Origin: a virus
Direction: 5' to 3' (one strand)
Length of the DNA stretch: 34,005 bases
IMG/VR virus record: IMGVR_UViG_3300037508_001628
Span: 1 to 34,005 of that record
In this document: one piece after another, positions 22,644 through 31,436 of the stretch
How positions within the stretch are numbered: position 1 is the stretch's first letter
Layout of the letters: every line of letters begins with the position of its first letter
Translations under genes and position numbers: made by a program
The notes under the pieces: model-generated
The model's input: the letters and a program-made list of their open reading frames with translations, nothing else
The model's database searches: none
What the model was told of the DNA's origin: nothing

Positions 22644-23410
22644 CATTCTGTTACCCCGCATTTTTGCGTGAATTGGTCATTTCTGCCAATTTCTGCGATT
22701 TTATATATAGTCGCAGATCAGACTATCGCTTCACCTTTCGGTGTCCACTCGCCTTAGTCGTTCAGGCTGTACATTTAATCATTAATCTTGTAGAATTACA
22801 TACACATCTAACAAGGGAGTTAAGATGACTAGAAGTAAATATACAAGAATTGAATATGAATCTACAAAATTGGCCTATCTTGCTGGAATTATTGATGGTG
22901 AAGGAACACTTTTCATAGGAAATTACGGAACCAAGGATAAAATCCGAGGAACGGGATTCTTTCAAACAATAATGGCGGTTACAACTACCGATGTTGTTCT
23001 CATAAATTGGCTTTATGAAAATTTTGGTGGCTGGAAATCCGAATACACTCCAAAACAGAGAGCTAAAAATTGCAAAGGACCTGTTCACAGCTGGAAATGT
23101 ACCGGAGATAGACTTACTCATTTGTGTGAATTGATTCTTCCTTTTCTTATTATCAAAAAAGATCAAGCTACCATTCTTTTGGAAATGAGAAAAACTTACT
23201 TTAATTCCGAATATCAAATCGGAAAACAAGGAGTTCAACACATTCCTGATGATGTTATCGCTAGAAGATTGGAACTTATGGATCAACTCAAAAAACTTCA
23301 TTGTAGAAACCATACTTTTAATAATTAAACACTTGCCCCTTGTTGCCCTCAATGAGGGGTTCCAAGTCAATTAGAGCAGATTTTAAACAGGCAATATCTT
23401 CAAAATTTTT
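22644..23410 (-). ncRNA. Group I intron 3 (767 nt) with antisense LAGLIDADG gene
   Basis: P1: exon AACAGGT pairs with GCCTGTT (U.G at the splice site). P10: the guide's GAAGATATT pairs with the 3' exon AATACTTC apart from one bulge. Core: TTGACTTGGAA line (complement at 23360-23370), P3 TCTGCTC/GAGTGGA, P7 GACTA/TAGTC, P8 CACC-GAAA-GGTG. The segment CTGAACGACTAAG is identical to intron 1. The endonuclease ORF fills the loop between the P4-P6 and P7 regions on the opposite strand. The intron ends CAGAATG. Confidence 0.85.
22825..23328 (+). CDS. LAGLIDADG homing endonuclease, antisense within intron 3
   Basis: 167 residues. A single LAGLIDADG motif is clear (LAYLAGIIDGEGTL, about residues 17-30), so the enzyme probably acts as a homodimer; the two Asp/Glu-rich helices at the motif form the interface and metal site. 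VTTTDVVLINWLYENFGG and LPFLIIKKDQATILLEM fit the family fold. ATG 22825 has a strong SD (AAGGGAG). It is encoded on the strand opposite to the capsid transcript, so it needs its own promoter and is not made from the intron RNA. It would cleave an intronless capsid gene to spread intron 3. Confidence 0.9.
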   Translation: MTRSKYTRIEYESTKLAYLAGIIDGEGTLFIGNYGTKDKIRGTGFFQTIMAVTTTDVVLINWLYENFGGWKSEYTPKQRAKNCKGPVHSWKCTGDRLTHLCELILPFLIIKKDQATILLEMRKTYFNSEYQIGKQGVQHIPDDVIARRLELMDQLKKLHCRNHTFNN

Positions 23411-29183: not shown

Positions 29184-29423
29184 TTATCTAAAGGCACTTT
29201 CTTTGAAACCCAAAGTCTTGCCAAAATTAACATCATCACCGTAGTATTTAGGTATCTTATGCGTCATCACAGCATAACGAAGTGCGTCGCAATTTTTCAC
29301 TATAATTCCATTGGCAATCATGTTTCCATTCTTTTTTGTCGCTAAACAATAAACATCTTGTTGTTTGTCCAGTCGTTTTATAGATTTAATTTTTACGCCT
29401 ACTACTTCCACATTTTTTTCCAC
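29184..29423 (-). CDS. Terminase large subunit C-part: intein C-half plus C-extein
   Basis: 79 residues from GTG 29423 (AAGGTAAGG 4 nt upstream). Residues 1-44 are the C-terminal intein half: block F DVYCLATKKNGNMIANG and block G IIVKN ending in the catalytic Asn; the penultimate residue is Lys instead of the usual His, and block F has Cys where Asp is common. The +1 residue is Cys, and the C-extein CDALRYAVMTHK (35 residues in all) completes the nuclease motif of the terminase. It is in the same frame as the N-part but separated by the HNH ORF. Confidence 0.85.
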   Translation of the reverse strand: MEKNVEVVGVKIKSIKRLDKQQDVYCLATKKNGNMIANGIIVKNCDALRYAVMTHKIPKYYGDDVNFGKTLGFKESAFR

Positions 29424-29973
29424 AAAACCTTACCTTTAAATATTTATTTCTCATAAACAGAGATCCACATTTTTCACATTTAATTTCAATATCATCTAAG
29501 CCTGAATCTCTTCTCCATTTAGATTTACATTTATTAGAACAAAATCTAGTTCTTTTTAAATCTATTTTATCAATTTCAAATTCTTTTTTACATTGATCAC
29601 ATATTGATTTTTCTGGGCTATTTCTTGCAAATGTTTGTTTCGCATGCTTCGAGTGCCACTCTTTTCCTTCTTCGCTTGCGTGCCACGCTTTTGTCAAATG
29701 TTGAATTTTACTCATTCTTTCGGCAGCCCATTTTTTTCTTTCAATAGTCATATGCATGGATAAGTGATCTTTTTCAGTTAGTTTTTTCAAATTAGAAATG
29801 TCATTATTAGATTTGTTCCCATCAATATGATGAATATGATACCCATCTTCAACAGGACCATAATGATATTCATATACCCATCTATGAGCACGAATTCTTG
29901 GATAATCTGTTGAAATCCAATAACCTGTTTCTTTATCTAAATAGAATTTTTTTCCGAAATGTTCCTGGTGCAT
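29386..29973 (-). CDS. HNH homing endonuclease inserted in the intein
   Basis: 195 residues in a different frame from both terminase parts, overlapping the N-part by 37 nt and the C-part by 38 nt. The HNH core is clear: RAHRWVYEYHYGPVEDGYHI, HHIDGNKSNNDISNLKKLT, then EKDHLSMH. The C-terminal part has two zinc-binding motifs (CDQCKKEF ... FCSNKC and CEKCGSLF ... FCGKKC). No SD precedes ATG 29973, so it may be made by frameshift, coupling or not at all from that ATG. Probably drives homing of the intein-HNH cassette into intein-free terminase genes. Confidence 0.85.
   Translation of the reverse strand: MHQEHFGKKFYLDKETGYWISTDYPRIRAHRWVYEYHYGPVEDGYHIHHIDGNKSNNDISNLKKLTEKDHLSMHMTIERKKWAAERMSKIQHLTKAWHASEEGKEWHSKHAKQTFARNSPEKSICDQCKKEFEIDKIDLKRTRFCSNKCKSKWRRDSGLDDIEIKCEKCGSLFMRNKYLKVRFCGKKCGSSRRKN
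29412..29421 (-). repeat. 10-bp direct repeat, right flank of HNH cassette
   Basis: Minus-strand GGAAAAAAAT, identical to the copy at 29946-29955. The two copies are 534 bp apart (178 codons), so loss of one copy plus the intervening DNA joins the intein halves in frame (EKN|VEVVG). The A7 run is also a possible slippage site. Confidence 0.6.
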
Positions 29974-31436
29974 GTTAGTACTATATCAGATAGTGTCAAT
30001 TGTTGCAATTCGATATAGCCTCTTTTTGTAAGTATTTGATGATCTCCAGTTGCGACTAGTTTTTTCCCATCTTCCAGCTCAAGTTCATAGACAATTGCAT
30101 TCTCACGTGTCAATGAAGGATTGTAAGCAATATCTCTTTCGATCATACCCATTTCAACATCATAACTTAACATGGGCAAATCATGAGCAAATTTATCAAT
30201 TACTCTCATACCAAGAGGTGTCATTATTTCGGTTCCGTAAGCTACACAAGCATGATCATTCTTTTTTAAAGGAGCATCTAGTCCCATTTCAGCTTTACGA
30301 GAATCCCACACATAACCTTCGATTTCTCTAATCAAGTTTTTACAGTTATTCATAATGAAAAGATTTCCTTTTTGCATTTCAGAAGACATGTAGCTAATTC
30401 CATCAAGAACATCATTATTTGCATCAACAGGTTTTAATCCACGTCTTCGTAATTCCTCTTTAAAAGAAGCTGCGCTAGGATCAACATAAATCCCCCTAAC
30501 GCCATAAGGCTCAAGAAAATCTTTAATATCATCTGCAAACTCACTATGGGTTTTACCCTTTTTTGTTACCGAAATATCCCAATAATATTCTTTTTCTACC
30601 CATCGCATAGGGCCTGATTGTTCATACCTGCCTGTGCTTATTCCTATTATAACGCAAGCAAATGCATTGGTAAATCCCACATCAATTCCAGCAATGAAAT
30701 ATTCTGCTGCTCTGGGGGCAGTTTTAACCACATAGATGTCTCGATCAAAGAAGTCAAATATAGCGCCATCAGCCAAACACCAAATACCAAGATAATTACG
30801 TTTATAAAAAAGACCACTAAGAGAGTTGCGGATACGATTTTTATACTCTTCTGGAACATATGGGTTATCATCAAGCGTGTAATGAAGCTCATAATAGTTT
30901 GGGTCTCCTTGCTCAGCTTTATCTATCCATGTTTTTAGAATGTGGTTAGGATGAGAGGGGTTCATTGAAGCAAATAACATAGAATAGGGCTTAGAAAGCC
31001 TAGTGTCTATCATGTTGATAACAGATTCCGAATAAAGAGTCATTTCATCACAGTAGCACAAAGACATAGTAGACCCTTGAATAGCTCCGATTGCACCATC
31101 GTCTTTAACTCCAAGAGTTTTTATTACTTTATCTTTGAACAATAACTCTCTGTCTCCTTTTCTCCACATACAAAAAGGACGCCATACCGAAAAAGGATCG
31201 GGAGTTCCTTTTGGAGGTCTTGTTAGTAAAAGCGATATGGCGTTATTAAAAATGGTAGTAGAGGTTTTACCAATCATCCAGATATCAGAATCTGAACAAT
31301 CATCAACGGCATCCATAAACCTAAAAAGAGTCCCAACAGTCTTACCTGATCGAACAGATCCGTGAGCTAAATTTATTTTCTTATTCGCCTCAAGAATAAA
31401 CTGTAATTGCTTTGGAGCCAATGGTTGCTGTATCAT
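29937..31436 (-). CDS. Terminase large subunit N-part with intein N-half
   Basis: 499 residues: 396 of terminase and 103 of intein. ATPase: Walker A GSVRSGKT (about 26-33) and Walker B LCYCDE. Nuclease: FIAGIDVGF (first Asp), GIYVDPSA (second Asp), and KNDHA, where the gene is cut. At CVAYGTEIMT the intein begins (block A, Cys1); LVATGDHQILTKRG is block B (TxxH). The frame stops after TRNISEKNSI, so the C-terminal intein half must come from another ORF. Spliced terminase would be 431 residues, normal for the family. The start at ATG 31436 has no SD and lies at the predicted transcription start (leaderless). Confidence 0.88.
   Translation of the reverse strand: MIQQPLAPKQLQFILEANKKINLAHGSVRSGKTVGTLFRFMDAVDDCSDSDIWMIGKTSTTIFNNAISLLLTRPPKGTPDPFSVWRPFCMWRKGDRELLFKDKVIKTLGVKDDGAIGAIQGSTMSLCYCDEMTLYSESVINMIDTRLSKPYSMLFASMNPSHPNHILKTWIDKAEQGDPNYYELHYTLDDNPYVPEEYKNRIRNSLSGLFYKRNYLGIWCLADGAIFDFFDRDIYVVKTAPRAAEYFIAGIDVGFTNAFACVIIGISTGRYEQSGPMRWVEKEYYWDISVTKKGKTHSEFADDIKDFLEPYGVRGIYVDPSAASFKEELRRRGLKPVDANNDVLDGISYMSSEMQKGNLFIMNNCKNLIREIEGYVWDSRKAEMGLDAPLKKNDHACVAYGTEIMTPLGMRVIDKFAHDLPMLSYDVEMGMIERDIAYNPSLTRENAIVYELELEDGKKLVATGDHQILTKRGYIELQQLTLSDIVLTCTRNISEKNSI
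29946..29955 (-). repeat. 10-bp direct repeat, left flank of HNH cassette
   Basis: Minus-strand GGAAAAAAAT in the last codons of the intein N-half (S-EKN). In the N-part frame it reads A_AAA_AAT, a possible -1 slippery heptamer that would lead into the HNH frame. Pairs with the copy at 29412-29421. Confidence 0.6.

Follow-up and report, generated by a model that had tools for sequence, protein, structure and literature searches.

We detected a fractured gene for the terminase large subunit (TerL) in a virus, in which the coding sequence (terL) is cut at a split intein and a gene for an HNH endonuclease lies between the two parts. The gene is found in the IMG/VR virus record IMGVR_UViG_3300037508_001628, whose 34005 bases are the whole stretch of DNA analyzed here (the window). 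An earlier note on this DNA had proposed such an arrangement, and both the window sequence and the relatives collected in the current study support it. We infer that the two intein halves very probably splice in trans to form a TerL of 431 residues. The locus consists of three overlapping open reading frames (ORFs) on the minus strand, an N-ORF and a C-ORF that share one frame and an HNH ORF in frame -1, with the following features, including a Shine-Dalgarno (SD)-like site and two runs of seven A (A7).

29937..31436, minus strand: N-ORF, TerL N-part (396 aa), intein N-half (103 aa) and stop (TIGR01547, 109.9 bits; intein_Nterm, 23.9 bits)
30249..31436, minus strand: TerL N-extein, ending in KKNDHA within the nuclease DHxCDALRY motif, which can be aligned to solved TerL 5oe8 through the intein-less relative L021
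29940..30248, minus strand: intein N-half with Cys1, first residues CVAYG and block B TGDH (match to NrdJ-1 split intein 8ubs)
29386..29973, minus strand: HNH endonuclease ORF, 195 aa, with an HNH_3 domain and Cys-rich zinc-ribbon-like motifs, in frame -1 relative to both intein halves
29764..29892, minus strand: HNH_3 domain, residues 28-70 of the HNH ORF (62.2 bits)
29937..29973, minus strand: overlap of N-ORF and HNH ORF, 37 nt (from the ORF coordinates)
29386..29423, minus strand: overlap of HNH ORF and C-ORF, 38 nt (from the ORF coordinates)
29184..29423, minus strand: C-ORF starting at GTG, intein C-half (44 aa), TerL C-extein (35 aa) and stop (intein_Cterm, 29.1 bits)
29292..29423, minus strand: intein C-half with blocks F and G and terminal Asn, ending in GIIVKN (profile matches, residue check)
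29187..29291, minus strand: TerL C-extein, 35 residues, beginning with the +1 Cys (CDALRY; sequence, residue check)
29428..29436, minus strand: SD-like AAGGTAAGG within the 3' end of the HNH gene, 4 nt upstream of the C-ORF GTG (sequence)
29947..29953, minus strand: genuine A7 run where the N-ORF and the HNH ORF meet (comparison with other contigs)
29413..29419, minus strand: genuine A7 run where the HNH ORF and the C-ORF meet (comparison with other contigs)

The score of the TerL part against TIGR01547 lies above the cutoff (105.05), identifying it as a PBSX-type TerL. Its two parts meet within the nuclease motif, the N-extein ending in DHA and the C-extein starting with CDALRY, and the corresponding DHLCDALRY of an intein-less relative aligns with the DHQLDADRY motif of TerL 5oe8, the residues of which we take to be the metal-binding residues of the nuclease. 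The N-half carries Cys1 and a block B TxxH (TGDH), and the C-half blocks F and G, a terminal Asn and a +1 Cys (GIIVKN followed by C), as expected for the two halves of a class 1 split intein. The C-half scored well above the intein_Cterm cutoff (15.6), and the halves matched complementary stretches of the Pfam Intein_splicing profile (34-94 and 113-155), each below the whole-domain cutoff. The best relative of the N-half among solved sequences was the NrdJ-1 split intein 8ubs (E=1.3e-8); searches of solved-structure sequences with the HNH and C-part profiles found no match. The HNH ORF matched HNH_3 far above its cutoff (24.8 bits) and lies between the genes for the two intein halves, as in other fractured genes. 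The layout is that of a split intein, with the halves on separate ORFs and the C-half having its own start, and not that of a canonical intein, as the endonuclease is not in the intein frame and no single ORF spans the locus. The intein blocks at both ends, the site where the exteins meet, the out-of-frame HNH ORF overlapping both neighbors, the GTG of the C-part with its SD-like site and the A7 runs had all been described in the earlier note and were found here again, and the extein lengths (396 + 35 = 431 residues) were recomputed from the ORFs.

Based on this anatomy, we propose that a class 1 split intein interrupts the TerL nuclease domain between DHA and CDALRY. Two precursors would be translated separately, an N-precursor (TerL 1-396 plus the intein N-half, IntN) and a C-precursor (the intein C-half, IntC, plus the last 35 residues), the latter from an internal ribosome-binding site located among the codons at the 3' end of the HNH gene. 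The halves would then associate and splice in trans into the 431-residue TerL, which would depend on this reaction. The HNH gene, in the -1 frame and overlapping both halves, would most likely encode a homing endonuclease that spreads the element.

The fractured layout is not restricted to the window. Five viral-contig scans, one genome scan, two protein searches of phage records and stretches from named records yielded 209 loci, many of them overlapping, and all locus counts given here are among the matches listed. HNH matches below 80 bits were left out, and 128 rows were reduced to 97 distinct HNHs by shared 6-mers, comprising 49 nested, 20 fractured, 25 without detectable intein and 3 loci cut by contig ends (partial), which were excluded from class comparisons. 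A locus was called nested when terL was one ORF with both intein halves and the HNH gene lay inside the intein in another frame, and intein-less when no intein half was found near the HNH, which in some cases (L204, L209) lies upstream of terL or on the opposite strand. The host ORFs checked against PHROGs were TerL in 7 of 7 cases. Both Cys1 and TxxH were present in all 20 fractured loci, while the last intein residue was Asn in 19 and Gln in one (L005, 4139-4255), and the +1 residue was Cys in 18 and Ser in two; insertions occurred in two adjacent registers, after DHx or after DH, in each case before the C. The layout is also present in Lactobacillus phage CL2 (L200; terL 506-1954, HNH 1967-2590, C-piece ORF 2487-2774), with intein_Nterm (45.6 bits) and intein_Cterm (24.6 bits) both above the cutoffs. 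In the CL2 record, the TerL C-terminal piece with the intein C-half is unannotated between the HNH and portal genes.

Translation of the C-half is suggested by the conserved splicing residues, by purifying selection on the C-part and by a putative internal ribosome-binding site. A quick tree of 94 HNHs places the window in a clade of 28 members (11 fractured and 17 intein-less; Shimodaira-Hasegawa-like approximate likelihood ratio test, SH-aLRT, 97), and in most of its loci with a C-part, the C-start falls within the codons of the HNH NKYxK motif. An SD site, defined as at least 4 bases located 4-11 nt upstream of the C-frame start, preceded the C-start in 9 of the 11 fractured loci of this clade vs 1 of the 17 intein-less relatives (L109), the background in the terL coding sequence of the same 11 loci being 29 of 326 ATGs. 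The homologous ATG is kept in 5/17 intein-less HNHs, none of which has an SD site (0/5), and in the window it has been lost and replaced by the downstream GTG with AAGGTAAGG. This embedding of the C-part start and its ribosome-binding site in HNH codons of the relatives was absent from the earlier note. In L175, the HNH is mostly lost, the SD-ATG tail with TTTAGGAAAAATAAATATG is kept and the halves are still in different frames. Past the HNH stop, synonymous differences per site exceeded nonsynonymous ones in the C-part in 9/9 pairs (pS 0.67-0.99, pN 0.16-0.40); synonymous sites were saturated, and dN/dS was not estimable for most pairs. The C-ORF lies in the +1 frame in 18/20 fractured loci, perhaps because this frame has far fewer chance stops, with class means of 5-8 expected per HNH gene vs 21-23 in the +2 frame for the three main classes.

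The frames on which this reading is built are real. Sequencing or assembly indels in the A7 runs could hide an ordinary intein that is continuous and has its HNH domain in frame, given that GGAAAAAAAT is found at both junctions and that a -1 followed by a +1 shift would join the frames. This possibility had been named in the earlier note as the one that could overturn its proposal, and the check came out negative. Two contigs (L002, L003) are identical to the window over 9221 and 7735 bases, and a third (L082) shows 2 differences over 5069 positions; the three are gapless and keep both A7 runs, their samples being possibly non-independent. The relative L005 is only 59% identical (IntN 47%, IntC-ORF 53%, HNH 52%) and has the three ORFs in the same relative frames with the same overlaps, with no A7 at either junction, a layout also seen without A7 in other loci. 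Its N-ORF ends at the same out-of-frame TAG within the FYLDK codons of the HNH as in the window (FYLD), and the stop is at the same place in L171, L108, L113 and L172. In L103, L110, L112 and L117, the N-ORF is even in the HNH frame and yet stops one codon before the HNH ATG, and none of the 69 loci with an HNH and both intein halves is an in-frame continuous fusion. Besides, the 22 other long ORFs of the window that were checked are all open through 23 A/T runs of at least 7, and the intein frame across the window HNH has not been kept open, as it contains 12 stops, with 11.4 expected when synonymous codons are permuted. We thus reject the sequencing error, which the comparison with the diverged L005 excludes and which is left with next to no probability. 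The A7 runs are also plausible slippage sites, and programmed frameshifting or transcriptional slippage could additionally yield some fused intein-HNH-intein protein; however, opposite shifts at two sites would be required, and the same layout without the runs in L005 led us to reject this quite improbable explanation as well.

The fractured locus could also be a dead terminase, broken by the HNH insertion and with the C-part as a remnant, since split genes can be in decay and one locus (L187, see below) looks like it. The splicing residues are nevertheless kept in 20 distinct loci, the C-part is constrained in all pairs compared and has an SD site at its start, and the records of phage CL2 and Brochothrix phage BL3 contain the split form; a dead gene is therefore rejected as highly improbable. 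Alternatively, the two pieces could form a non-covalent two-chain TerL without splicing, for which Aeh1 NrdA offers a precedent (PMC3653736). Conservation of the intein blocks and catalytic residues in 20/20 fractured loci speaks against it, and the intein tails at the cut would lie inside the nuclease motif, which makes a two-chain enzyme quite improbable too. Trans-splicing of a split intein accordingly remains the reading that we favor.

Several observations weigh against it. The intein N-half of the window falls slightly below the NCBIfam cutoff (23.9 vs 24.5 bits), and the penultimate residue of the window intein is Lys where His is usual, Lys also being found in 10/20 fractured loci. The contrast in SD sites between fractured and intein-less loci (Fisher p = 7e-5) ignores shared ancestry, and two of the 11 fractured loci of the clade (L112, L171) have no SD site before the C-start. 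The HNH start of the window has no SD site, which leaves the translation of the HNH unaccounted for; our guess is that it is coupled to termination of the N-ORF. An SD site near the HNH start was no clear separator of the classes (fractured 10/20, nested 28/49, intein-less 9/25, with several starts tried per locus).

In most members of the family, the intein is continuous and the HNH is nested within it out of frame, which the earlier note had not described. The HNH frame is the intein -1 frame in 48 of the 49 nested loci, which include L118 (3612-4571), L201, L202 and L207. The frame one base after that of the HNH has no stops in 48/49, with expected means of 2.7 (permuted codons) and 5.4 (codons drawn by the GC content of third positions), while the 49th locus (L161, 2320-4614) uses the other frame, with 10 stops in +1 and 0 in +2. 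Fractured HNHs had a mean of 8.0 stops vs 7.7 expected, with L187 as the sole open case, and intein-less HNHs 9.7 vs 8.7, with none of 25 open; openness follows in part from how nested loci were defined, which does not hold for the comparison with expectation. The structural model of the nested L118 intein has confident ends and a predicted local distance difference test (pLDDT) score below 50 over residues 88-292, mostly the out-of-frame stretch. Its predicted fold matches solved inteins or intein-like domains, the best being a Clostridium thermocellum intein-like domain (Z 17.8), gp41-1 (17.1) and NrdJ-1 (17.0). An AlphaFold model of the re-fused mini-intein, run with two sequences, was unreliable (mean pLDDT 32).

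The nested HNH is unannotated in phages Highwayman, TJE1 and LS06-2018-MD07. Two single TerL ORFs (L132, 1350-4679; L149, 1155-4376) apparently contain two inteins, each with an HNH nested in the -1 frame. The match of the phrog_30251 profile ('terminase large subunit') to nested TerL ORFs extends through both the intein and its out-of-frame stretch, and overprinted residues may have been built into this family. The nested-type locus L187 (3267-4646), from an archaeal metagenome-assembled genome, has one HNH-frame stop and one intein-frame stop 7 nt apart, followed by ATGATG, and possibly represents an element caught splitting or decaying.

At one and the same TerL nuclease motif, the element thus occurs as an HNH gene downstream of an intact terL (L019-L022), as the nested form, as the fractured form, as a split terL with an eroded HNH (L175 and BL3, in which only the HNH tail remains) and as a mini-intein that is continuous and retains a remnant of the HNH out of frame (L170, L174). 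The eroded and re-fused states had also been missing from the earlier note. The window resembles a nested-type element that has been released and split, if change has run in that direction. In the quick tree, well-supported branches imply that the fractured state was gained or lost at least 3 times. No nested member was found among the 28 HNHs of the window clade, and the agreement of N and C frames in 11/20 fractured loci (counted from the frame-offset table) speaks neither for nor against a change from nested to fractured. We tentatively suggest, as a possibility somewhat short of probable, that a still-open intein with an HNH overprinted in its -1 frame is common in the TerL of bacterial and archaeal phages, and that split inteins like that of the window are the released state of such elements, which can be reversed. 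Upon release, stops would build up in the intein frame, a ribosome-binding site would evolve in the HNH codons and splicing would shift from cis to trans; the split state would be reversible, as deleting the HNH joins the halves again.

Fractured genes are already known, and the variant described here, with TerL as host and an overlapping HNH, is new. Dassa et al. 2009 reportedly found fractured genes with split inteins, in which the host gene is cut and an endonuclease gene lies between the halves; the NrdJ-1 split intein 8ubs presumably comes from that set. The window shares this cut and this position of the endonuclease gene. It differs in its host, TerL cut at the nuclease motif, and in an HNH_3 gene overlapping both halves, and its relatives differ by the series of nested, split and eroded forms. 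The DNA polymerase B of MIJ3 also has a phage split intein with an HNH gene (orf154) between the halves; the host protein is different, and the passage available on it does not mention overlap, nesting or an internal start (PMC6892783). In ShiLan, an HNH is hidden out of frame in a methylase, within an open host ORF and with free-standing homologs beside host genes, and according to its authors, in the part available, there is no intein or intron splicing domain (PMC11855218). In the family described here, by contrast, a real intein surrounds the nested HNH, and in the window this intein is split. The open host frame of ShiLan is seen in the 49 nested relatives and not in the window, where the intein frame is closed by its 12 stops (11.4 expected) and both intein halves are present. 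Mycobacteriophage inteins share the host protein TerL, but the insertion is in the ATPase domain, and neither 'split' nor 'overlapping' occurs in the text available from that paper (PMC5050341). Collaborative homing of the terL intron of ICP1 involves a neighboring, free-standing endonuclease gene by an interrupted terL, which may be compared with the intein-less relatives having an HNH just downstream of terL; that case, however, concerns an intron, not an intein, and a T5orf172 nuclease (PMC10448857). Our literature searches found no paper on trans-splicing of large terminase inteins or on the combination of overlapping HNH, split intein and terminase. In the titles, abstract openings and passages covered, which did not extend to a preprint on non-canonical architectures of actinobacteriophage inteins, no intein was described as having an HNH nested in it out of frame.

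Elsewhere in the window, a 167-aa ORF (22825-23328, plus strand) that matched neither Pfam nor NCBIfam has a LAGLIDADG-like stretch by eye (LAGIIDGEGTLFI).

Such terminases are easily misannotated: the phage records examined lack both the nested HNH and the small C-piece. They also offer a new set of natural split inteins. As regards the origin of split inteins, one element family here shows five states, some of them in sequenced phages. If the proposed release of nested elements is true, overprinted elements would be a natural origin of split inteins, and also an exit for them.
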